Assembly (NCBI RefSeq): GCF_003144195.1
Contig: NW_020289999.1
Coordinates: 131,544 to 195,543, forward strand
Direction of reading: 5' to 3'
Origin: Ceraceosorus guamensis
Taxonomy: Eukaryota; Basidiomycota; Exobasidiomycetes; Ceraceosorales; Ceraceosoraceae
Length of the DNA stretch: 64,000 nucleotides
The notes under the pieces are model-generated. The model did no database searches. It worked only from the letters and a program-made list of their open reading frames with translations, and was not told the DNA's origin. A program made the translations under genes and the position numbers. This document shows positions 27,421 to 52,036 of this stretch, in pieces; positions within the stretch are counted from its first letter, which is position 1, and each line of letters begins with the position of its first letter.

Positions 27421-30293
27421 ATGGCTGGGGCTTTCAGGTGCAATGCTCCGGTCCTCGGACGTTGTTCATCGCCTCTCATTCCTACACATACAGCGTCACG
27501 ATTCAGACGGGTCGGTCTCGCAAGCTCGACAATCGAGCCCTGTGTAAGCCCTCAGCGCGTATGCGAGCATAGCCGCTTTTGCAGCACCTCGCGGGCACAG
27601 CGACGTCTGGGCCCAGCACGACATTGGCAAAAAGATGAGCAAAGCCACGTCGCAAAGGGCATGCAATCCTCCATTCGACTTCTGTCGACCTCCTCTTCAT
27701 CTCATTTCAAATGGTCAAGAGCGCAAAGATGGTGGACCGTAGCTTTACCTGCTTCTGCAGTTGGACTTGGCTTGACGATCTACTTGCAGAGCGCGGTCAA
27801 GGCAGAATCGGACGAACCTGAAGACGCAAAGTCAAGCCCGCACGAGCACGAAGATTCCAAGGCGTTCGCACCCTCCGTCGAAGCGCTGGACAATGAGCCA
27901 TCCGCCCATCTCATCATCCGCATTCTTAGTTCCATTGGGTCGACTCTGAACATTTACATCATAGAGCCACTGGGCACCACCAAGAGATTCGTTGTGCTTT
28001 TCTGCTTGTTCATGCCAGTCCTTTTGACCATACCCATGATTTGGGTGGGAAGCAGGAAGAAAAAGGGACCTTTGGGAAGGAGGAGAAGAGTCAGAAAGGA
28101 CGAAGAGGGTCAGAGATGGGGCGCTATTTGGTGGTACGGCTTCCTGGTCAAGCAGATGGAGAGAGCAGGTCCCACATTCATCAAGGTGAGCATCAACTGC
28201 ATGAATGCTCCGCGCAGACCTCCCACCCTGTCACCACGAGTGCTGCCGACCAATATCAAGTCGCTGACCACTCTTTGCTTCGCTTCTCACTCCCCTTCGC
28301 CAGCTCGCTCAATGGGCCGGCTCGAGGCGAGACTTGTTCCCCGAAGAGCTGTGCATGCTGCTCGGCAAGCTGCACAGCAACGGCAAGGCGCACTCATTCG
28401 CATACACCAAGAAGGTCATCGAGCGCGTCTTTGGCAAGCCTTTCGATGAGATCTTTGAGGAGTTCCCGCACGAGCCTTTGGGCATCGGAGCTGTGGCACA
28501 GGTGCGTCACAAGGGTAGCATTCGCCCTCCTCCTCTGGTCTAACACATGTAGCGGCGTTGAATCACAGGTGTACAAGGCGAAGCTCAATCCGGAGCTCTT
28601 GCCCCCCGCTTACCTGACGGAAAAGCGAGAAAGGGCGCGATCTACAGAAGTGTCTCGACAGCTCGCGCTGACTTACGAGGATGACTCGGCGCCGCCCGCA
28701 GTGCCTACCGCATCGGTAGCGATCAAGGTTCTTCATCCCAAGGTTCACAGGACGATCAATCGGGACATCAAGATCATGTCCTTCTTTGCCAACCTCATCA
28801 ATCTCATCCCCGGCGCCGAGTGGCTCTCTTTTCCCGAAGAAGTCGATGTCTTCGCTTCGATGATGTTCAGCCAGCTGGACCTGCGAAACGAGGCGAAACA
28901 TTTGAGGAGGTTTGAAGATAACTTCAAAAAGAGGAGAGCTGCAGTCTCGTTCCCCAGACCTCTCTTCGAGTTCAGCACGCGCGAAATCCTTTTCGAGGAG
29001 TACGAAGATGCGCTTCCACTGAAGCACTTTTTGAACTTGGGTGGAGCTGCGTTCGACCATCGTATCGCTACGCTTGGTCTGGATGCTTTCTTGGTGAATG
29101 GTCGATGACCTCTGTGTGTGGCAATACCACTGCTGACTCTTGCCAAACACTGCCTGCAGAACATGCTCCTGATCGACAATTTCACGCACGCGGATCTGCA
29201 CCCTGGAAACATCATGATCAAGTTCTACAAGCCGACAACCTCTTCCATGCTGCACGACCTCTTTTTGCGCATCCTGTCTCGATTTGACTCGGACTATGCC
29301 AGAGGAGCGAAGAAGGGAGCACCTTCGGCGGATGATCAGGTGGATCAGAGCGTCGTTGAGCGATTGAGACCGCTTAAAAACGATGCAGAGGCGTGGCTGG
29401 ATGAATTGGAAAGGCTGGATGCGCTTGGTTATCAGCCCGAGTTGGTACTCATAGACGCCGGCTTGACGGTGGAGCTGACTCCTCTGAACAGGCGAAATTT
29501 CTTGGACTTGTTTGGAGCGGTGGCGGAATTTGATGGAGCGTTGGCTGGAAGGTTGATGGTGGAAAGATGCAGAAGTCCGGATCTGGTGATTGATGAAGAG
29601 ACGTTCGCGCTCAAGATGCAGGATCTGGTCTTGAGCGTCAAGAGCAAGACGTTTAGTCTGGGCAAAATCAGGATCGGAGATGTGCTCAGCAACGTATTGC
29701 AGAGTGTGAGGAATCACCATGTCAAGATGGAGCCGGACTTCGTCAACACCGTCATTAGCATTTTGCTGTTGGAGGGTATCGGCAGGTCGTTGGATCCCAA
29801 TATGGACGTGAGTACAAATTGTGCTCCCAATAAGCTTCGCTCCATCTCATCTTCTCTAAAACTCTTGCTTCGTTGCGTGCTGCAGCTTTTCCAAGCCGCG
29901 TTGCCCATCTTGCGCGGTGGCTTGCGCACAGCAGATGCAAAGACCATGATGACGCATCGTCCTGACATGAAGCACTTAGGACCTATGCTCAAGGTGAGAA
30001 GAGCGCTACACATCTCCATCCGTGCTCTTGCTTTGCTCAAAATAGAAGAAATCGCTAACGTGCAACGTCCTCCCTTTTTCTTCGCAATCAGATCTGGCTT
30101 TGGATGGAGGCGCGATCATGGATGTGAGTAGCGAGCGCACGCAGACGGCGCTTCGAAGAGGTCAGAGTGGCGCTGACGCACGCATGCTCGCTCCATTCCA
30201 TCCTCTCCGCTCCACGTCCTGTGCAGCACCGCGCTTGCCGACCCTACCCTCGTCAACGGTTTCACCCGCTATGGTTGGCTGTCGGGCGACTAG
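27421..30293 (+). CDS. CQD1: UbiB/ABC1 kinase-like mitochondrial protein (Cqd1/ADCK2 type)
   Basis: Seven exons: 27421-28185, 28304-28501, 28569-29093, 29160-29807, 29886-29993, 30092-30123 and 30227-30293. They encode 780 residues. The N-terminus is Arg/Ser-rich (mitochondrial targeting). Two hydrophobic segments follow: WWTVALPASAVGLGLTIYL near 100 and FVVLFCLFMPVLLTIPMIWV near 190. UbiB motifs are then visible: FIKLAQWAGSRADLF starting at about 253 (the KxGQ motif, here KLAQ), PLGIGAVAQVYKAKL across intron 2, VAIKVLHP (about 371), HADLHPGN (506-513), and LIDAGL at 593-598 replacing DFG. QWAGSR is typical of the ADCK2/Cqd1 branch, which in yeast influences coenzyme Q distribution and phospholipids at the inner membrane. 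True kinase activity is doubtful in this family. The ACP gene is its divergent neighbour. Confidence 0.87.
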
Positions 30294-30654: not shown

Positions 30655-33600
30655 TTACTCGCTCAGGGAAAAGGCGTTGTTGATGATGCTGCACCACGCA
30701 CGGGCGTCTGCTGCCTTGCCGCAATCCAAATAAAGTATGCAAAGCTTTCCCACCACTCTGATGGTCGTTTGGCCCGTCACTTTGACTGGCACGAGCGGTT
30801 GGATCTCGCTGTACAGCTCAATGGGCGCAGGCGACTCTTTGCTTGTGCAAGTCTCCGCAACTGCAACCAGCAAATCGTTGCAAAGAATGAGCTGGAGAGC
30901 CTTGGCAAAGAGCTGCTGTTGGAGCGCAAAAATCTCGATCAAGTCTGCGCCTGATGGTGTCCTTGTCCGGCCGATCGCACCGTCCGAAAAGAAATCCGTC
31001 TCGTCCACATTGGCGAACATTTGTGCAGGTACGGCGACTGACGCTTTGCGCTTCACCACGCGCGTCAGAGTGACGGGACCATCTCGAAGCAGACGGCGGT
31101 GAGGGAGCACCAGTGGGTTAGGCCATCGACCTACAGCACGCGCCTGCCAAGCCAACAAGCGTTGATCTTGCTCGTTCTGTCGCTTGGCTTCATTGACGCC
31201 ACGCGCGAGCTCCGTGATAGCTTCGAGAGCAGCGACCATGGGATTGAAGCCGTTCTCACCGTACTGCACGCGATGAGCAGGCGTGTACCGGACCAAATCC
31301 TCCAGCAGCAAGCGATAGCGCGGCAATCGCTGCACCGGCAACAAGAGGTAAGACTCGAGATTGATCTGACTGTGGCGCTGGTCTGCCTTGGCATGCTGCA
31401 AGAAACTTCGTACGCGCTTGACCTGCTTGCGCGCAAGTGCGCTCGGCGTCGCTTCCGATGCTGTAGAGGGCCTCGGCGTCGATCCCCGCCCTGATGTTGC
31501 CACTGTCGGCATGGACTGTAGCCAGGCCGCAACCCTGACCTGGGCGCCATCTAGACCGTTGACGTACCTGCAGCAAGCAAGGAAAAAGGGACGCTCACGA
31601 ATCAGCGTGACGTTCGTCAAAGAAAATAGAGGCCCTGCCTGCACTCACTGCCTGTACATCTTCATGAATGCAGCATGCGAGAGGAAAGTCTGCGCTACGC
31701 TTTGAGCCGCAGCTGCTGTAAGGTCAGCGTCATGTGACGCATTCGGTTGAGCGTTCGTGCCGAGCAACGGTTCGACAGCAGCGCGAAGTGATGGCACAAG
31801 GGAGCGGTGCAGCTGAGAAATGCTCTCCACGTTCATGAAAATTAGCCCGTGCTCCAAAGGTGGGACCAGAGGCACTCCGTTTTGATCGAAAGCTCTCATG
31901 GGTGCAACGTAGAGATCTACGAGCTCTTGCAACTGACGCGCATAAGTCTCTTCGGTGGACAAGATCTCCTGCAAGATGCGCGCACGCCTTACAGAGTCAT
32001 CTTTGGCTAGCAGCGTAGAAGCCGCTTCATCAGATGCGGCGCTCTTTGGACTGTTGTCGCCGCGCGAATGTACCCGAGTAAAAGTCTGGCGGGGCAAATC
32101 TCCTACTTGCGGATCTTCAAGCGGACTCGATACGCCGGCATCAAGCATGCGACTGGAAACTCCCGAAAGGTCGTGCAGATCTTTGAGGTAGTGCATCAGA
32201 GCACGAATGCGCCTCGAATGATCAGGTGATATCTGGCGCCATTGCTCTCGCTTTTCGAGGATTGCGGTCTCGCTCTCATGAGCGTCGGTGGCGATGTTAG
32301 AGAGGCTATGCTCCATCTCTGGCGATAGCAGGGTTGGGCTGGGTAGAACTCCTTGTATAGAGGGAGGAAGCTGCGGGATCTGTATTGGCATTGGCGGTGG
32401 CTCATCGAGCATCGGCGATCCCTGCAAACCAGCATTGGATTGCTTGCGGCCGACGCGTCGAAGGAGCGTGCTAAGACCGTTGCCCACGCTCGGTCTGCGC
32501 GCCGATGTGAGGGGCGGAGCGAGCTCCGTGTGCGAGTCATTCGTCGAGCTCATACTCCGCGCTGGAGCAGATGAGGGCGTGAGGAGCGGAGCTTTTTCGC
32601 TCAAACTTCCAACCTTGGTCGACGTCCTTCCGCGCCAAGATTGGCTATTGAAAGATGCCGCGTTTGCTGATGCAGGAGAAGGCGGACCAAGCGGGGCGGC
32701 CACGATTGGCAATATCGGATCAGCACGAGAGATGGGAGCTGAGTGCGGTCCACTGAAATCCTCCGACGAGACGAGTCCTGTCACTCTATTCTTGAAGAGC
32801 CCCTCCTTGAACGTTGATGTCGAGCTCGTATGCAGCGAGGGTGGTCGTTGTGTACGAAGCGAAGCACCATGCGATAACAATGGCGTTACGATGCGCACCC
32901 AATTTGGCTGCATTGGATTGCCATCGATACAGAGACGCTCCAGCTTCAAGGTATGCATCCAAGAGGGCAAATGTGACAATTCGTTGTCTGCGACGCTCAA
33001 GCTCTTCAGCTCTTTCAGTCCTCCCAGAAATTCTGGCAAATGATTCGCACCAACTCCGTCGGCGATCAGAGTGGTGAGAGCTTGCAAGTCCCCGACGACC
33101 GTGGGGATCCTACCAAAATTGTTCCTCGAGATGTTGAGAGTTTGAAGGGAGCTGCACATTGACATGGCAGCGGGAAGCTCCCACAGACCGGCTGACGAGA
33201 TGTCGAGATCGCTGGTGGAGTGCAAGGAGGAGGCAGCGGACATTGGCTCAGCGGCCTGCCTTGCGCTTGGCGGCCACGTGTACTCACATCAACGTGCTAG
33301 ATATGTAGGGCAGAGAAAGTTTGAGCCAGTCAGGCAGTGCCATGTTTTGACAACCTCTCAAATCCACCGAAGAGACATCCTGGGCGATGAGCTGCTCGAC
33401 TGGCGGAAGAGGTGTTTCCACCATGGGAGCATTAAACACTGATACAGGTGCTTGGTAGAAGCTAGGAGGCGAGCGCTCGTGCGGTGATGTGGCAGGACGA
33501 GCCGCGAGGCTGAGTCCAGCTGTCCTCATCCGATCATTGTCCACGACGATGTTGTGCGCTTCCTGCGACTGGTCGAATGTCTCTGCATGCTGGGCTTTAG

Positions 33601-41322: not shown

Positions 41323-43340
41323 ATGTCCACGGCCACCTTATCCTCGCTCTTGCCTGCTCCTTCGGTCTCAGTGGCCGATGAACTGGATGATGACAACGTG
41401 CTCGGCAGTGGCGCGTCGCAGCAGAGTCTGTCGATCGCTCCAAAAGCTAGCATCCCTCCGTATGGTCAAAGGAGCAACTGGAAACCTCGTCTAGAGGAGG
41501 ATTTTGCTGATGGAGGAGCTTATCCGGAGTGTCACTTGGCCCAGTACCCTAGAGATATGGGCCGCAAGAAGTCGGTGAGTGCCCTCATTCCTCGAATCGA
41601 TGGGGCTCGAGCAATGGTGGGAAGATGGTGCGAGAATGCTGACTGACGCCTTATCCTCGCCTTGCCACTTCCTCAGGCTAAGCCGGGAAGCCAGCTCTCC
41701 CTGCAGGTAGACGCTGAGGGCAATGTTCGCTACGATGCTATAGTGCAACAAGGTCGCAAGGATGGGCAGATGGTGCAATCTCGCCTGAAAGATACGCTAC
41801 CGATGCATGAGCGAGATGATATGAAGGACGTGTCGCTAGAGAGACCAGACGAGGCATCCGTCATGTCGACCGCTGAGCGAACGCGTTTGGCTCTGGAAAA
41901 GATCACCCAGGGCAAGATCAAAGCTGCTCAACCCAAGCATGTATCCAACACTGCTGGCAACAGCACTTTTGTCAGGTACACACCCGGAGCTCAGGGTGCT
42001 GCGGCTGGAGGATCTCAAAGAATCATCAAGATGACTGAACAGGTAGAGGATCCGCTCGAACCGGCCAAGTTCCGCTTCAAGAAGAACCCGCGCGGCGATC
42101 CGAGCCCTCCTCCTCCTGTGCTCAGAAGCCCTCCTCGCAAAGTCACGGCGGCTGAGCAAAAAGAGTGGATGATCCCACCTTGCATTTCGAATTGGAAGAA
42201 CAACAAGGGTTACACCATCCCGCTCGACAAACGTCTGGCAGCGGATGGTCGAGGCCTGCAAGATGTGCACATCAACGATGGCTTTGCGCATTTTAGCGAG
42301 GCTCTGCACTTGGCAGAGAGACATTCCAGAGAAGAAGTGCATCAGCGCAGCATCATGCAACAGAAATTGGCGCAGAAGGAGAAAGCTGCAAAGGAGGAGC
42401 ATCTGCGTGCGCTTGCTCAGAGAGCTAGGGACGAGAGGGCAGGCATCGCACCTAGCGCTACACCCATGAGCAATGTGGGAGATAGGAGCGACCCGACGGA
42501 TCGCATGACTGCAGCAGGGGGAGGATCGATGCCTTCTGCGCTGGCGGCATACGGCAGCGATAGCGACAGCGACAGCTCGAGCGAGGAGGATGATGAAGCT
42601 GCAAGGGAGCGCGATCGTGTCCGAGCAGAGCGTAAAAGGGACCGAGAGCGCGAGATGCGCATGGCGAGCATGGGCAGCGAGCAACGGGCTCGCATGCTCG
42701 CACGAGAGCAGAATCGCGACATTTCGGAAAAGGTTGCGTTGGGTTTGGCAAAGCCTACCAACACTTCGGATCAGGTGGACTCCAGATTGTTCAATCAGGA
42801 ATCCTACTCTGCTGGATTTGGAGATGATGAGAGCTACAATACGTTTGACAAGCCGCTTTTCCAGGGAAGCAGCGCTGCTCAGACGCTCTATAGACGACCG
42901 GCTGGAAATTCGGCGGTGGACGTGTACGCTGCGACGGAGGAAGCTGCGAATGAGGCCATGAGAAATGATCGGTTCGGTCTTGGTAAAGGAAAGGCTTTTG
43001 AGGGCGCAGATCTGCAAGAGGTGAGCGCGACACTTTTCGACCTTGCCAAGCGGTGCGAAATCTCAAGCCACTGATCATCTTTCTCCTCCCTTTTCTCTTC
43101 AGGAACGTTCGGGTCCAGTCCAATTCGAAAAGGATACCTCGGACCCCTTTGCGATCGATGCATTCTTGGACGATGCGAAACGAGGTACGAAGCGATCAGG
43201 AATCGAGACGTGAGTCAAAGCTGCACCTCGACGGCCGAAGCGCGTCGCCCTTTGCTGACCGGTCACTCCTCATTCGACTCGATGCGCCACACAGCGCCAG
43301 CTCTTCCCGTGCGAAGCGACAGAAGGACGAAGATGACTGA
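41323..43340 (+). CDS. PRP45: Pre-mRNA splicing factor Prp45/SKIP (SNW domain)
   Basis: Exons 41323-41574, 41677-43020, 43103-43209 and 43295-43340 encode 582 residues. The early region has the typical IPPYGQRSNWKPR and a YPECHLAQYP segment. The SNW domain includes IPPCISNWKNNKGYTIPLDK at about 250-269, which contains the family's name-giving S-N-W-K motif, followed by ADGRGLQDVHINDGFAHFSE. A long charged helix rich in Arg, Glu and Ala follows, then DISEKVALGLAKP and a C-terminal EERSGPVQFEKD segment shared by SKIP proteins. SKIP/Prp45 is a component of the activated spliceosome and helps the Prp22 step. Metazoan SKIP also acts as a transcription coregulator. All introns are GTGAGT/GTGAGC with CAG. 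Length is similar to other basidiomycete homologues. Confidence 0.93.
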
Positions 43341-44050: not shown

Positions 44051-45772
44051 TCAGAAAACGCCTCTTCTAATGGGTCCTCTTCCGGCTCTCGTCGCCTTCA
44101 GGGTGACCAAGCGAGCCAAGTTGAGATTGACTGGGGTTGGTATCCTCATCGATTCGCCCAATGCCGCGATATAGCCATTGATGAATTCCACCTCCGTAGA
44201 TCCTCTATTGGATTGAATATCCTGCAGCATGCTGCTGATGTTTTGAGAAGTCAAGCGCGCTACGTCCAACGCTTCCGACAACAGTCCGCCCGGCTTGAAC
44301 ACCTCCTCTGCTTGCGCCAGACGCTCCTCCGCACCCTCGGGATCATCCAATCTGTCCCGTGCAGCTGCAGCTCTCGCCTGGGCGATAAGCACAGTGCTAG
44401 CCTCGGCACATATGCTACGCATCGTGTCAGTTGCGGGGCCGTTCCCAAACAGGTCCCCATTCCTGCATTCAGCTAGAGCCGTCAAGGGATTGATGCAGGC
44501 GTTGACGACCAGCTTCTTGAGCACAGTCAGCTGCATCTCTCGAATCGGCTGCCACGTCACATTGAGTGGCAAGCTCAGTAAAGTCGCGACTGTCCTCTGC
44601 AACGTGAGTGTGGAGTGAGGGTCGCTCGGAATTGCGCCGACGTCCAACAATTTGTGATCTCGATACACAAGGGCGGAACTGGTTGCGCTCTGGCTCGTTT
44701 CCGCTGCGGCAGCTGGCCGAAAGATCTCCCAGCCCCTTGGTCTGCGGGGTGACCTGCGATCGTCATGAGTGCCGAGATTGCCGGCGGAGCGATTCGCCGC
44801 CTCGCGCTGCTGCTCCGCTGCCCCGGCATCCTTCGGACTCTGCACCAGCAAGTGCTCATATCCTCGCGGCGCGCGGGCGGGATTAGGTACAATGGCAAAA
44901 TTGAGGGTGCCAAAGGCCGCGTGAACGACGTGCAGTCGATTCCGTCTGTAGGCGCCATGTGTGGTGCTGGCGATGATGAAATTTGGTCTCGTCTCGGGGT
45001 CTGGGAACAACCGCGTGTTGAGAAGGTCGAGGACTCCTTGCCCGTTCTGAAGCAGCACGACCGTGCTGGCTGGCGTGAGTCGTTTCGAGAGAGATTTGAT
45101 GGCATCGAGTGTTGTATCCGCCTTGCTCGATACGATGAGGCTATCGATCGCATCTCTCCCAAGACCGGCAGCTGCGCAGATTCCGGGAGCCTGCGCTCCT
45201 TGCGATCGAGTAGAGCCCCCTTTCGCTCCCACTCCCGGACCTGAGCTGTTTCCCCCCAGCAGGCTGTCGAAGACGAGGCCTTTGGCATGATGCTCCTCAA
45301 GTGTGAAGCCTTGCTCCTTCCACTTGACATTCTCCCTCTCGTACAAGATAGAGTCCTCCATGCTTTGCGTGCCGATGTGTCCTCTTCGATTTCGTATCCC
45401 TCGCAAGTGTAGCGTAACCTCGCTTTGTTCTTGGAGCGGCATGTAGGGCGCTGCGTGTGGAGCAGGATTGAAAAAGTGCGGTGGACCTCCCGAGGCTCCC
45501 CTTCTCTGCACGCCATCCGAGCTTTTCCTTTCATTGACCGAAGGTTGTGCGAAGTCTTCGATGGCCCCGTCACCGCTGGCGGACGACACGTCGAGACGTG
45601 CGCTCGGATCGATTCCGGCATTTTGTTGCAAGGCTTCGATTGAAGGATTGGATGGCGTTGTCTGAGGGTCGCGGTATTGAGAAAAGTGGACTTGCGATGC
45701 TCTAAGTGTTCTTCGCAAGTGAAAGGCGATGAGAGAGCCGATGGATCCCACGCCAGTGACATGGAAGCGCAT
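44051..45772 (-). CDS. PAN5: 2-dehydropantoate 2-reductase (ketopantoate reductase)
   Basis: A single exon of 573 residues. The NADPH-binding Rossmann start is MRFHVTGVGSIGSLIAFHLR (GxGxxG type). The mid-region has SLIVSSKADTTLDAIKSL and TVVLLQNGQGVLD, both typical of the family. The catalytic region is VLKKLVVNACINPLTALAE (Lys near 419-420, Asn 424), with the C-terminal STEVEFINGYIAALGE. The enzyme reduces ketopantoate to pantoate in pantothenate and CoA synthesis. The protein is much longer than the 350-400 residues of most relatives because of two inserts: about 110 disordered residues after the first beta strand region, and about 60 Ser/Arg/Pro-rich residues near 310-370. The first in-frame ATG directly precedes the Rossmann motif, so the start is firm. 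Confidence 0.88.
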   Translation of the reverse strand: MRFHVTGVGSIGSLIAFHLRRTLRASQVHFSQYRDPQTTPSNPSIEALQQNAGIDPSARLDVSSASGDGAIEDFAQPSVNERKSSDGVQRRGASGGPPHFFNPAPHAAPYMPLQEQSEVTLHLRGIRNRRGHIGTQSMEDSILYERENVKWKEQGFTLEEHHAKGLVFDSLLGGNSSGPGVGAKGGSTRSQGAQAPGICAAAGLGRDAIDSLIVSSKADTTLDAIKSLSKRLTPASTVVLLQNGQGVLDLLNTRLFPDPETRPNFIIASTTHGAYRRNRLHVVHAAFGTLNFAIVPNPARAPRGYEHLLVQSPKDAGAAEQQREAANRSAGNLGTHDDRRSPRRPRGWEIFRPAAAAETSQSATSSALVYRDHKLLDVGAIPSDPHSTLTLQRTVATLLSLPLNVTWQPIREMQLTVLKKLVVNACINPLTALAECRNGDLFGNGPATDTMRSICAEASTVLIAQARAAAARDRLDDPEGAEERLAQAEEVFKPGGLLSEALDVARLTSQNISSMLQDIQSNRGSTEVEFINGYIAALGESMRIPTPVNLNLARLVTLKATRAGRGPIRRGVF

Positions 45773-47051
45773 CACGCGCCGCGAATGGACGGATATCTGC
45801 TCGAGAGGGCGCTGATTGTATGCGCCCTCCTATCACCCTGATGGGTGGCTTGCAAAGACCACCCTGTATAATCGAGACCGATGCAAGCGAGTGAGAGTGG
45901 CCACATTCAACTCTGAGCCGTGTAGGCTTGGGTGGGTAAAAGTATCGCTGACCGATGGGTTACCTCGACCAGTGGCGCATGCTTCGAAAAATGACACCTG
46001 GGAGCTCTGCTTCCTTTGAGCGACGACCTGAGCGCTGCGCTCGCCAGAGAGTGGGCAATATGCAGAGGCGGAGAGCGTGCCAGTGGTTGTGATTGTGCAA
46101 GTTCGAGCTGCTCGAGTGCAAGCAAAAGTTCAACACCTGACTGCGCGGCCTTCGCCTTCGGAAGAGCAAGTCAGCCGATGAGAGGCACTCGATGGTGCGA
46201 GACGAACGTGGTGGGCGCTTGCTGTACGTAAGTGGAAGTGGTCGAAGTGCGGAAACGAGCCGCAAGTCGAATCGTGCAAATCCGGGAACCCTTGTTTGGT
46301 AAGATTCAAATTGTCCGTCTCTTCATGGCCGCTACGGATTTTGATTTCTTCCTCCGTCAGCGCGGCCTTGACCGGCTGACCCAAGCCTGCACGCTTTCCC
46401 GTACGAGAGATGACTAATCACCGCACGGCGAGCGCACACGCACGCGACTTCTTGCATAGCCAGTCGCGACGATTCATCGATTGCATTGTGATTGCACACC
46501 ATCATCACATCAGCCACGCGTTTCGAATTGTTCGTATTCACTTGGGCCTGATGCAGAAAGGAGTGTGGAACATGTGGGCTTCGGCGGGCGATTGGAGGTC
46601 AACCCGCGCTAAGGGTAACGACCTCGCAGTCAGAAAGTGTGCCAGTGAGGAAATGCAACGTTCAAAGTTCGGACATGGATCGAGAAGGCATCAAAGAGCT
46701 GAGACAAGGAACAGGGGTTGGGGGTGGGAAGGAGATGCGAAGAGAAACCGTGTACCATGCAGAGACGCTGAATCCAGCCACAGGCAAGGAAAAGGCCTCG
46801 TCCTGTTGCGAGCTGCAAGAAGAGTGTCGAATGTGCTCAAAGATGACCCTGTATTAGATGGGAGTGCCAGAAAATCAATGTTCTTTTGTAGCGGTTTGGG
46901 TTGGCGACGAGAAAGAGCGAGACCGGCTGCAAACCGCATCCATGCGGAGGGAAGGTCGTTGGATGGGCTGCTGCTGTCGCCAAAAGAAGGTGACGGTGAG
47001 GGCGGAGGCCATTTCTTGCAGGAGTGTGTTGGACCGGCCGGCAGCAACGAA
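45773..47051. other. Unassigned intergenic region, 1.3 kb
   Basis: Lies between the ketopantoate reductase start and the megaenzyme stop. Several overlapping frames exist. The most protein-like is on the minus strand near 46265-46410, with GKRAGLGQPVKAALTEEE, but it lacks a good start or clear splice partners. The right part is probably the 3' UTR of the megaenzyme. No gene is called. Confidence 0.4.
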
Positions 47052-50000
47052 TTATTTGAAGCCCGATCCTGACACGTTGAAGCTACTGCTGTTTGCAGAC
47101 GTATTTCCCAGAGCCGTGGCCTTGGGTCGTCTTGTCCTCAGTTGCCTGGCAGGCCATCCTGCGTAGACCGCGCCGGCTTCCGCAATTTCACCACTGGCGA
47201 CCAGAGTGTGCTCGAGCAGCATCGATCGTGGTTCCATCGATGCACCAGAGAGGAGGCGCGATCCAGTGCGCATAGCACATCCGTCGCCAATCCTCAGCTT
47301 GTTCAGGCTGAAGCGCCCTCGAGAGTTGATGTGCGCAACTACTGAGCAATCGTCTAGCGATACGCGGTCGCCCATGGTCACCAGCTCGGGCTCGGTCAAT
47401 TGCAAGCTTGGCTTGCCACCTGCCCAGATAGCACAATCGCGGCCCACCGTTGCGCCGAGAGAGCGCAAGTACCAGACGACAAAGACAGTGCCCGAAAGAT
47501 TGCCGAGAATGTGGCCGCCGAAACCTTTTCCAAGTAGGCGCTGCATCGTGAGGTGCAGCTGCCAGCGTTGACAGTAGCTGCTCTTGTCCCAGTCGTAGCG
47601 ACCCTCTCGTCTTCTGCCGATGACGGCCCACTTCGTGCCGACCACCCAGGCAAAGGCGAGAAGCATTTGGATGTTGAGAACCACGACGAAACAGATGGCG
47701 ATAAACACGTACACCAATCCAGGGCGGTACCAGTGATCGTCGAAAATCTTGGCAGCGGCGACTTCCAAGTGTTGACGAGCAAAGTTGAGGGTAACGACGG
47801 TAGCGACGGCTGCGCTTGCCCAGTATGCTGAAGAGAAGACAGCCATGACGATGTTGATGGCAACGAGCATGAGATATGGGAAGACGAAGAAGTTGGCCTT
47901 GCGCTTGTAGAATGCTCGACCGAATGGAGTGATGGTCTCGTCGTCATCTCCGGCTGACATGCCCTCCTTGTTCTCCTTGGCCGCCTTTCCGAAGCTGACT
48001 GCCGCGCCGTTCTTAGAGCCCATCCAGACGGTGTTCTCCTCGTACAGGCCGTTGCGAACGGCAAGCGCACCAGAGCCCATGACACACTGCTTGCCAATGG
48101 TCGTTCCTGGCAGCAGCACAACGCGATCTGCAATCATCGCACCTCGGCCAACGCGAACGCGAGCCCAGCCAATGGAGTCGGAGGTGAAGACTTCAGATCG
48201 TGAACCGAAAACGACGTCGTCACCAATCTCCAATAGCTCGGGGTCGGGACAGTAGATTCCGCTTCCTGGCCAGTACACTCGCTTGCCGACCTTGGCACCC
48301 ATGGCACGGTACACAACCGAAGTCATCTCGTAGTGAGTACCAAGAATCGCCATGGCGCGTCGAATGTTAGGCTGCGACAGAAGTTGTCCGTTGATCCAGC
48401 GACGGAAGAGCGTGAGTTGGGTAGCGTTGCGCGTGGAGCCCTCGCGGTTGAGACCGAGCACTCGCTTGACCAGCACACCAAGCACGAGGTTGATAAGTGG
48501 TGGCATGACGTTTCGCATGATGCGCGCGACGTAGTGCCATCCGATACGCGGATTGTATGCAAACCACGCGATGACACCCTTGACGCTGTCGTTGTGGCTG
48601 AACTCGAAAGGTTGGGACAACAGCATGAAGAGAGCTGCAAACCATGGTACATAGCAGATCACCTTGATGATCAGCAGGATCGGCGTTCCGATGAACCACA
48701 CTAGCGCCCAGTGGGGCATTGGCGCAGCGTTCCGATTGTAAGCCGCATAAGCGTCGGAAGAGGGTTCTTCGTGCGAAGAGGCTTGCGGACCCCATACCGT
48801 ACCGTCTGCGAGTCGAGCACCGGGCGAGATCTGAGTGAACGTGTTGACCACGCAGTCGCGTCCGATGATGATTGGTTCGAGACGGAAGTAGCCATCGCGC
48901 TCCACGCAAAAGGCTCGGACAAGCGACTTGTCGATTCGAGCTCCGTCGTGGATGGTGATCAGGTCGTGCTCTGCAATCTTCGCAAACTTGTCGATCTGAA
49001 CGTCAGAGCCGATGGACATGCCCAGAAGCCTGAAGTAAGTCCTGGTGAGGCCCGGTGTCAATGCGAAGAGACCTTTACCGGCAGTGCGCAAAGATTGGTT
49101 GACGAGCCACCAGCGAAGGTGGTAGTTGCACCACATCGGATACTTGCCGGGACGGTACCTGCCAATGACGAGCCACTTGAAGGCAATGGCAGTGACTGGG
49201 CAGATGATACGACTCGTGAAACGGGCGACAACGATGGAAGCGAGCAGCACTCCGACACGTTCCCAAAAGTCGTCGCGGATATAGTAGGCGGAGAAGGCGA
49301 GGCCATGCAGAATGACTGTCCAAGTCCAGGCTGCTTTGAATGGGTAGAAGAAAAGAATGGGCATGAGCTGTATCAACATGACCCAAGGATGTGTCTGGCT
49401 GCGTGGCTTGTATCCGTGAGCAGTGACTGCTGGATCGAGGTCGCCAGCAGCATCATCGTCGTACCGATGCGCGGAAGCGAAGGCGCCCTGAGCTCCGGTC
49501 TTTTCATCCGCGTAGTCCATGTCTCCGTAGTCATCGTCCTCATCGCCGCCCGTCTCGTCCTCGATGAGCGCAGCAATACCCTCGACTGTGGAATTGTTGA
49601 ACAAGGTAGACACTTCCAAACTGACGCCTGTCTCCTTGCGAATGAGGTGGACTAGTCGGCCCAGGAGAAGACTGTTTCCACCGAGCAAGAAGAAATCGGA
49701 TTCGGCCGTGATCGTGCCAGATTCGGTGTCGAGCAGCTTGGCGATGATGTCGCGGACCACAAGCGCAGTCCTCGTCATAGCTGACGCGTTCTGGGCGCGC
49801 ACCTCTTCCTCCATAGTCTCAAAGTCGATCCTGCCGTTGACCTTTGCGAGCGGCTGGCGGAAGACGTGCAGCGGGTTGGGTACGACGTATCCGTGAAGGA
49901 CCTGCGCAAGAGCTCGGTCGATATCCGCCGCGTCGTATTCGGCATTCTCTTCGACTTGAATGAACGCTTCGGGAGCACCGTCCTTTCGTTGCCGGACCGC

Positions 50001-52036
50001 AGCTTCTACGATGCCCGGAATGCGGTAGCAGGCGCGCTCAACAGCTCGAACATCCACGCTGACGAGATTGCAAGGAATCGGGGTAGACAGCGGAACTTCC
50101 TTGCCCGGTGCTCGAGCCTCAAAGTGACGCCTCAAAGGAGGCACATCGTCGGAGAGGGGCCCAATGCTAAGTCGCTGGCCAAGCTTGATACGCAGAGGTT
50201 TGCCGGCCTGATTCTTCGGCAAGTCGTCCATGTAGACGATAGCGAACGGCCACTTGGATGGATGTAAGTGTGATCGCAACAAGTTCTGCAACTCTGCAAG
50301 ACCGATGCGGGGCTGATTTGGAACAGGCACGATGACCACCCCGATAGTCTCTTGCAGGACGGTGTGCTCGATGCTGAACGCGAGCGTTTGCTTGACACGA
50401 TCTTTGCATGCTTGCGTGATGGCTTCTTCGACCTCAAAGGGCGAGACGACTTCACCACCCTTGTTGATGATCTCCTTTGAGCGACCGGTGATGAAGAGAT
50501 AGCCATCCTTGTCCATGTGACCCATGTCACCCGAGTCGAACCAGCCTTCGCTTGAGAATGCAGAGGTGTCCAAAGGCTCGAAGGGATCGGTCGACGTCTC
50601 GTATCCAGAGAACGTCGGAAGTCCGCGCACTGATACCGCTCCAGTCTGTCCGACTGGCAGTTCTCGTTCCCTATCGAAAGGATCTCTGATCGAAAGCTCT
50701 GGGCCGCATGCAACGCCTGAGCATCCAGGACGGTCGAGCTGATAATTTGTGGGTGGCGAAGCAATAGGCATGCTGCATGTGGAGGAGGGGGAACATCAGC
50801 TATCCTGCGTAGGGCGCTGCAAGCTAGAAAAGCGCAACGCACCATTCTGTCATGCCGTAGGAGGGCAGCACGGCGCAGCCACCGAAGGTCTCCTTCAACT
50901 GGACGGCAAGGGATGGCAGCAGACCACCAGCAGCATTCGCAATCATCTTGATCTTCACTTCCCTAGCGACGTTCACGCCCTCCGGCTTTGAGGCCAGAAT
51001 AGAGTGATGCATGGTTGGAGCCGCATAGTACCAAGTGGCACCAAGTTGCTTCGCTACAGTCCACCACATGTTGGCGTCAAAGCCAGCGCAGATGATAGCA
51101 CTACCAGCAGAGAACATTGGAGACCAAAGATTCCTGACAATACCGCCGACGTGGAAGAGAGGCATCATGTTCACTGAAGTAGACAGAGCTATGTGTCAGA
51201 TGCAAAGGTGCAAGGTTATGGCAAAGTCACACTTACTGTTGACGGAGTGTGGTCTAAGATCCCAACTCGAAACGACGCAGCATGTACCGACGATCAGGTG
51301 GCGCAGAGAGTAGGGCACCACCTTCTTCTTACCGCTGGTACCCGAGGTGTGCAGCACAAGCGACTGGTGCTCCAGTCCATGGGGCATGGACGGCGATCGG
51401 CCACCTCGACTAGCAGCAGCTTCTTGGCCAAGACATGCCATGTCGAAGACGCCGCACGGTCCACTTCCACGCCCCTCGACAAAGATGATCTCCATGCCTT
51501 CCTCCTCGTACAAGGCTTGCACCTCCAAGCGTTCTGCTGCATCTCGCGTGGTTACCACAGCTTTGGCACGCAACCTGACAGCATCGTCACGAAGCTCGCC
51601 GGCGGTGCAGCTGGCATTCACAGGCGCACAAGTGTGATAGGCGGCGACTGACATCAGAGCCAATGCGTTCTCTGGACCCGTAGGTAGTGCTGGTAGGATG
51701 ATATCAAGGCGTGTCACAGCTTTAGCAACAGCACTCGGTCACCCAAAGCCCTTCGCGCATGCACTTACCCATCATGACGCGATCGTTGGGACCGAGTTGC
51801 TTGCGAGTAAAGGGCATCGAAAAGCGTTGAATGAAGCGTTTGGCTTCCGCATGGGTGATCGGAGGCCGGTTGAGGTCAGGACTCAACAGCGCAGGACCGC
51901 TCGTTGAGGGCAGCGCGTCGATGAGGGTCCGAACGCGACCCGAATCCGTCACATGCCGGGCCAGATGGTCACCAAGGGACACGCCTCGGTCCGGAGGAGG
52001 GAGGTTGTACAAAAAAGAAAGAGGAAAGTCGGACAT
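47052..52036 (-). CDS. Adenylation-PCP-triple LbH membrane megaenzyme, epsilon-poly-lysine-synthetase-like
   Basis: Exons 52036-51769, 51689-51237, 51173-50843 and 50772-47052 encode 1590 residues. Adenylation domain: A3 loop LHTSGTSGKKK (about 203-212), MMPLFHVGG, SYGMTECMPI across intron 3, FDSGDMGHMDKDGYLFITGR and RSKEIINKGGE (to about 457), then catalytic Lys542 in NQAGKPLRIKL. A second, orphan adenylation C-terminal subdomain follows (about 590-668), ending KVNGRIDF. The peptidyl carrier has LLGGNSLLL with attachment Ser718. Hydrophobic segments (about 813-886, 1038-1071, 1312-1401) alternate with three left-handed beta-helix acyltransferase-like modules (about 935-1016, 1175-1276, 1455-1561), rich in IG/VG hexapeptides. 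This order matches bacterial epsilon-poly-L-lysine synthetase (Pls), in which the three modules join carrier-bound monomers. It predicts a membrane enzyme making a homo-oligomer or an amide conjugate. The monomer is unknown. Confidence 0.85.

Follow-up and report, generated by a model that had tools for sequence, protein, structure and literature searches.

Two described systems lie closest to the gene reported here. One is the Pls/PosA family of synthetases, for which a fungal epsilon-poly-lysine synthetase (Epls) has been reported from Epichloe (PMC7179176), a report that the first-pass annotation of this DNA had mentioned correctly. The other is the polymalate synthetase of Aureobasidium melanogenum (QHD40385.1), an enzyme sought for more than two decades (PMC9210645) and described as a non-ribosomal peptide synthetase (NRPS) of 5049 bp with adenylation (A)-like, thiolation (T) and condensation (C)-like domains, six transmembrane (TM) helices and no thioesterase (PMC9210645, PMC11905612). 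It has been classed as NRPS-like, and a separate NAPAA cluster is listed for A. pullulans (PMC11905612). We analyzed a gene in a 64,000-nucleotide stretch of the Ceraceosorus guamensis genome (contig NW_020289999.1, positions 131,544 to 195,543; hereafter the window), and on balance we favor the view that it encodes a single-protein, membrane-bound carrier synthetase in which a Pls-like engine is joined to a different loading domain, the product being a malate-type ester.

The joined exons translate into 1590 residues with zero internal stops, and the closest match among those listed in a protein search, from Ceraceosorus bombacis, is of identical length and differs at 6 residues. The layout noticed in the first pass was confirmed: a carrier domain (Ser718) is followed by three membrane helix pairs that alternate with three beta-helix-like repeats (C1, C2 and C3), as in Pls and PosA, with C1 recognized by motifs and a model only. 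Structure prediction took in the C-terminal region (C region) and a piece comprising the C-lobe and carrier, and with VIA-align the C region was barely tested apart from C2.

The NCBIfam model for the Pls/PosA terminal domain (TIGR02353) matches the window protein in three stretches with an E value of 1.3e-54, although its score of 185.8 bits does not reach the curated cut-off of 423.1. In a tblastn search of plasmids with the C region, 51 records matched, 24 of them across at least 80% of the query; among the best 25 of the 51, identity was 21-26%, and those with an annotation were mostly named Pls/PosA, the others being called non-ribosomal peptide synthetase or amino acid adenylation protein. 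His1498 in repeat C3 is invariant in 56 of 56 aligned rows (12 fungal Pls and, counting the piece from the window, 44 of the window family), and the same column holds His in 31/31 rows of the window protein's type (acyl-type below) and in all 13 readable Pls-type rows, where the motif reads QTHLF, QTHLW or QTHLY. A 14th Pls-type row, with a misread frame, was left out of this count and of the Asp count given below. A sequence pattern for this histidine of C3 matches 192 of the 232 listed acyl-type proteins, and of the 40 that it misses, the four examined in the alignment (P0271, P0284, P0292, P0309) all keep the His with different neighbors. By analogy with hexapeptide acyltransferases, we take His1498 to be a candidate general base. 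Among the best 60 of 222 solved sequences retrieved with a bacterial Pls, none is a solved Pls C region, coverage extending at most over the first 629 residues. It is well supported from these comparisons that the C-terminal half is homologous to Pls/PosA and would be a Pls-like engine, so the relatedness proposed in the first pass stands.

The loading domain is of another kind. By sequence it is an acyl-CoA-ligase-type A domain and not an amino-acid-type one, which bears out the earlier suggestion of a different adenylation domain. Seven solved sequences match at 1e-30 or better, namely oxalyl-CoA synthetases, which are nearest, malonyl-CoA synthetases, which come next, and two malonyl/benzoate chimeras. 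The Asp of the A4 motif (FD...) that binds the alpha-amino group is present in 13/13 readable Pls-type rows and absent from the window protein, where the column holds Gly250 in the MAFFT alignment, or Val249 when the motif is matched to Pls without a gap, a pairing that we assume from the numbering of related enzymes. When the genome was searched (23.8 Mb, 199 contigs), none of the 12 matches of the amino-acid-adenylation model TIGR01733 fell in the window, and this model is not among the best 25 of 106 NCBIfam matches of the window protein; in P0163, an amino-acid-type control from Aureobasidium, it scores 338.9 bits, over its cut-off of 317.4.

The pocket motifs of this domain vary little. 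In a hand-chosen alignment of 30 members (the window protein, 9 basidiomycete rows and 20 others), the motifs PLFHVGGIVRN, WYYA, NAAGGLLP and YGMTECMPI are nearly constant, Aureobasidium included. Patterns for the four motifs were found in 217, 215, 227 and 220 of the 232 acyl-type proteins listed, counting fragments, and in none of the 120 Pls-type proteins listed. Invariant in all 30 members are 209 window positions, including R254, S345, Y346, C351-I354, K542, S718, H1498 and H1539. Arg254 belongs to the A4 motif and, going by the numbering of related enzymes, presumably lies in the pocket; our guess is that it could meet a second carboxylate of the substrate.

A protein search with the window protein gave 923 matches. 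In the best 120 of these, the named rows are all basidiomycetes, from Ustilaginomycotina (Malassezia, Tilletia) to Agaricomycetes, except one fern record. A search restricted to proteins of at least 1640 aa gave 689 matches, and the best 120 of these start with 18 basidiomycete rows, followed by Ascomycota (Aureobasidium, Fusarium, Colletotrichum, Trichoderma, Metarhizium and others), Mucoromycota (Absidia, Gongronella, Umbelopsis) and chytrids (Geranomyces, Polychytrium, Thoreauomyces), the non-basidiomycete proteins being 35-39% identical to the window protein. Among the matches listed, members carry names such as "acetyl-CoA synthetase-like", "peroxisomal-coenzyme A synthetase", "Oxalate--CoA ligase" and "NRPS-like". 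In a 44-row tree of the C region, the 31 acyl-type rows, with the window protein among them, are separated from fungal and bacterial Pls by a branch with support of 100/100; Rhodococcus and Azospirillum are long branches in this tree, and a Streptantibioticus row, a misread stop-to-stop frame with an end branch of 8.7, was left out, since with it the groups needed two changes. Judged by sequence, the acyl-type proteins are thus a distinct fungal family spread over Basidiomycota, Ascomycota, Mucoromycota and chytrids, apart from the Pls to which their C regions are homologous. The retention of a distinct pocket over four fungal groups would point to one common substrate class. In the literature searched (titles and abstract openings), neither the acyl-type family in basidiomycetes nor a link between polymalate synthetase and Pls is described.

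Three further observations concern the family. Of the 130 proteins in the basidiomycete set, which takes in rows without an organism name, 41 have a C-terminally fused RING finger (C3HC4 pattern), against 0 of 102 others; it is supported by Pfam in the agaricomycete homologues P0049 and P0106. The chytrid proteins P0274 (Geranomyces) and P0350 (Thoreauomyces), unlike that of Polychytrium, nest with support inside ascomycete rows, which suggests lateral transfer from an ascomycete. The fern record (P0013, Adiantum nelumboides) matches 60% of the window protein with 83% identity and probably represents fungal contamination of a plant assembly.

The nearest functional lead comes from Aureobasidium, which has proteins of both types. 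Those of the acyl type, P0257 (1690 aa) and the metagenome protein P0262 (1688 aa), are 88% identical and correspond to about 5.07 kb of coding sequence, which fits polymalate synthetase in size and class, while the 1423-aa P0163, with 565.6 bits for TIGR02353, fits NAPAA. We therefore consider that polymalate synthetase probably belongs to the acyl-type family, the comparison being one of published architecture, size and class only. The Aureobasidium proteins of matching size and layout fall on the same side of the tree as the window protein, which itself answers to the published description in having A-like, T and C-like domains and six TM helices but no thioesterase, with the helices differently placed. 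Malate is a dicarboxylate, as are the substrates of the closest A-domain relatives, and with somewhat more confidence than doubt we would name it as the substrate.

Taking these points together, the A domain would activate a carboxylic acid without alpha-amino recognition to an acyl-AMP, as its fold leads one to expect, the likeliest acid being L-malate or a close hydroxy-dicarboxylate if Aureobasidium is a guide. The acyl group would then be loaded onto the phosphopantetheine of Ser718, in keeping with the invariant motif there, and the fusion of three membrane-anchored beta-helix repeats, in which His1498 is the candidate base, would transfer it to a hydroxyl of the growing chain or of another acceptor, giving esters.

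Several points weigh against this reading. QHD40385.1 is equated with P0257/P0262 on grounds of architecture, size and class. The window protein and the Aureobasidium protein are 35-47% identical in the A core, carrier and repeats; identity is 55% for the C-lobe but 30% for the second one. In PMC9210645, the six TM helices are put in the N-terminal part of the enzyme, whereas those of the window protein are C-terminal; restoring the gene recovered only a third of polymalate production, and a separate malyl-CoA ligase route is cited. The acyl-type family is widespread, whereas polymalate has been reported in few fungi; some members may therefore have a different product. None of the 15 papers listed in one literature search mentions polymalate, so that no basidiomycete product is known to us; as general basidiomycete papers predominated there, this is weak evidence of absence.

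The same engine might instead take up some other small conserved acid and make a single transfer, with a lipid, sugar, amine or wall component as the acceptor; the product would then be a capped ester or amide rather than a polymer. Near-constant pocket motifs from chytrids to mushrooms would suit such a core function, the solved relatives of C2 and C3 are O- and N-acetyltransferases that act in a single step, and neither a transporter nor a depolymerase was recognized alongside the gene, where six of the ten flanking frames have no Pfam match. Against this, the membrane engine with three repeats is a feature of homopolymer synthetases in PMC10522769 and PMC7179176, and we regard a single transfer as unlikely, although a serious alternative.

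An enzyme that activates oxalate and passes it to the carrier for oxalate turnover would explain why the nearest solved A domains are oxalyl-CoA synthetases and why two listed relatives (P0300, P0312) are named Oxalate--CoA ligase. The pocket tells against it: FHVHG and RSCSAS, found in AAE3 and a second oxalyl-CoA synthetase (RSCSSA in Pcs60), are replaced by FHVGG and ANAAGG in the window protein, and at these positions the 30 aligned members have HVGG, or HIGG in two of them, and either NAAGG or NAGGG. The window protein is also not a free-standing CoA ligase, a carrier being present by Pfam, and catabolic ligases are not known to have a carrier or membrane engine. We consider this reading quite improbable.

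Least credible is the view taken in the first pass, that the gene is a basidiomycete Pls and its product poly-lysine or another diamino acid isopeptide. It draws on the like layout, homologous C region and conserved His1498 but is rejected on account of the type of the A domain, with no alpha-amino-binding Asp, and of a genuine Pls elsewhere in the genome, the TIGR02353 shortfall and the position across the 100/100 branch also speaking against it. An acid ester or polyester is the more likely product of the window enzyme. The second Pls-engine gene lies on contig 8 (345000-352500), encodes about 1485 aa and scores 571.1 bits with TIGR02353; TIGR01733 matches in both of its exons and its A4 motif reads FDMS. 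This Pls/Epls-like gene is a better candidate for a cationic homopolymer, and the poly-lysine expectation would move from the window gene to it. Both engine types are also present at genus level in Aureobasidium and Tilletia. The closest plain paralog of the window protein (contig 7, 27% identity) was dropped as a reference; it appears acetyl-CoA synthetase-like from its sequence. Of the first interpretation, then, the Pls-type engine stands and the isopeptide product does not, the nearest functional lead being a polyester enzyme.

A wider and more tentative proposal, which we would hold as possible and no better, is that an ancient membrane synthetase, common to fungi as far apart as chytrids, mushrooms and skin yeasts, makes an unrecognized acid polyester (polymalate or a related poly-hydroxyacid), that polyester and poly-lysine synthetases are one engine with interchangeable loading domains, and that Aureobasidium polymalate is the case of bulk production. 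Should the favored reading of the window gene be right, a gene family that is often annotated but has no assigned function would be tied to a product, polymalate synthetase would gain a structural model and a candidate catalytic residue, and the polymerizing engine of Pls would be able to carry a non-amino-acid loading domain.

The features of the gene and its surroundings are collected in Table 1. The second C-lobe-like domain between the A domain and the carrier is 17-30% identical in five acyl-type rows compared outside Ustilaginomycotina, and is degenerate and probably non-catalytic. Of ten flanking open frames searched with Pfam, four matched and six did not, and no gene cluster is recognizable among them, which suits an enzyme working alone, as the first pass had suggested. 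A ketopantoate reductase gene (pantothenate pathway) adjoins that of this carrier-protein enzyme, probably by coincidence.

Table 1. Features of the synthetase gene and of neighboring genes (window coordinates).
Feature	Position	Strand	Remarks
Whole gene	47052..52036	-	four exons, 1590 aa
Exons	52036-51769, 51689-51237, 51173-50843, 50772-47052	-	introns GT-AG
Adenylation core, residues 60-408	50601..51859	-	acyl-CoA-ligase type, introns within; Pfam AMP-binding; closest solved relatives oxalyl-CoA synthetases
AMP-binding C-lobe, residues 464-542	50199..50435	-	Pfam; includes Lys542, invariant in 30 aligned fungal proteins
Second AMP-binding C-lobe-like domain, residues 588-677	49794..50063	-	weakly conserved
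Carrier (PCP) domain, residues 690-754	49563..49757	-	
Ser718, predicted phosphopantetheine attachment site	49671..49673	-	GGNSL motif; invariant in 30 aligned proteins
Membrane helix pair 1, residues 813-886	49167..49388	-	
Repeat C1, beta-helix-like, about residues 930-1030	48735..49037	-	motifs and model only
Membrane helix pair 2, residues 1039-1123	48456..48710	-	
Repeat C2, left-handed beta-helix, about residues 1170-1300	47925..48317	-	
Membrane helix pair 3, residues 1317-1402	47619..47876	-	
Repeat C3, left-handed beta-helix, about residues 1455-1565	47130..47462	-	
His1498 in C3, candidate catalytic base	47331..47333	-	common to Pls (QTHLF)
SKIP/SNW	41647-43071		Pfam
Ketopantoate reductase	44054-45829		Pfam
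RhoGEF with leucine-rich repeats	31648-33288		Pfam
ABC1 kinase	29109-30128		Pfam

The oxalyl-CoA synthetases AAE3 and Pcs60 and malonyl-CoA synthetase have the A-domain fold and motifs of the window protein but are free-standing CoA ligases without a carrier and with unlike pocket motifs. Fungal NRPS-like A-T-TE and A-T-R enzymes, like the window protein, have single A and T domains, followed by a thioesterase (TE) or a reductase (R), neither of which a Pfam search finds in the window protein. The polymalate synthetase of A. melanogenum is alike in domain layout as described, and the Aureobasidium family members share the pocket motifs of the window protein, being about 39% identical to it overall and about 100 aa longer. 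Pls, PosA and fungal Epls (TIGR02353) have the same order of A domain, carrier, three helix pairs and three beta-helix-like repeats, with His1498 in common, but their A domain is of the amino-acid type where that of the window protein is of the acyl type, and their repeats are 17-24% identical to those of the window protein (four Pls rows). With the same engine, Pls forms amides, whereas the window enzyme is proposed to form esters.

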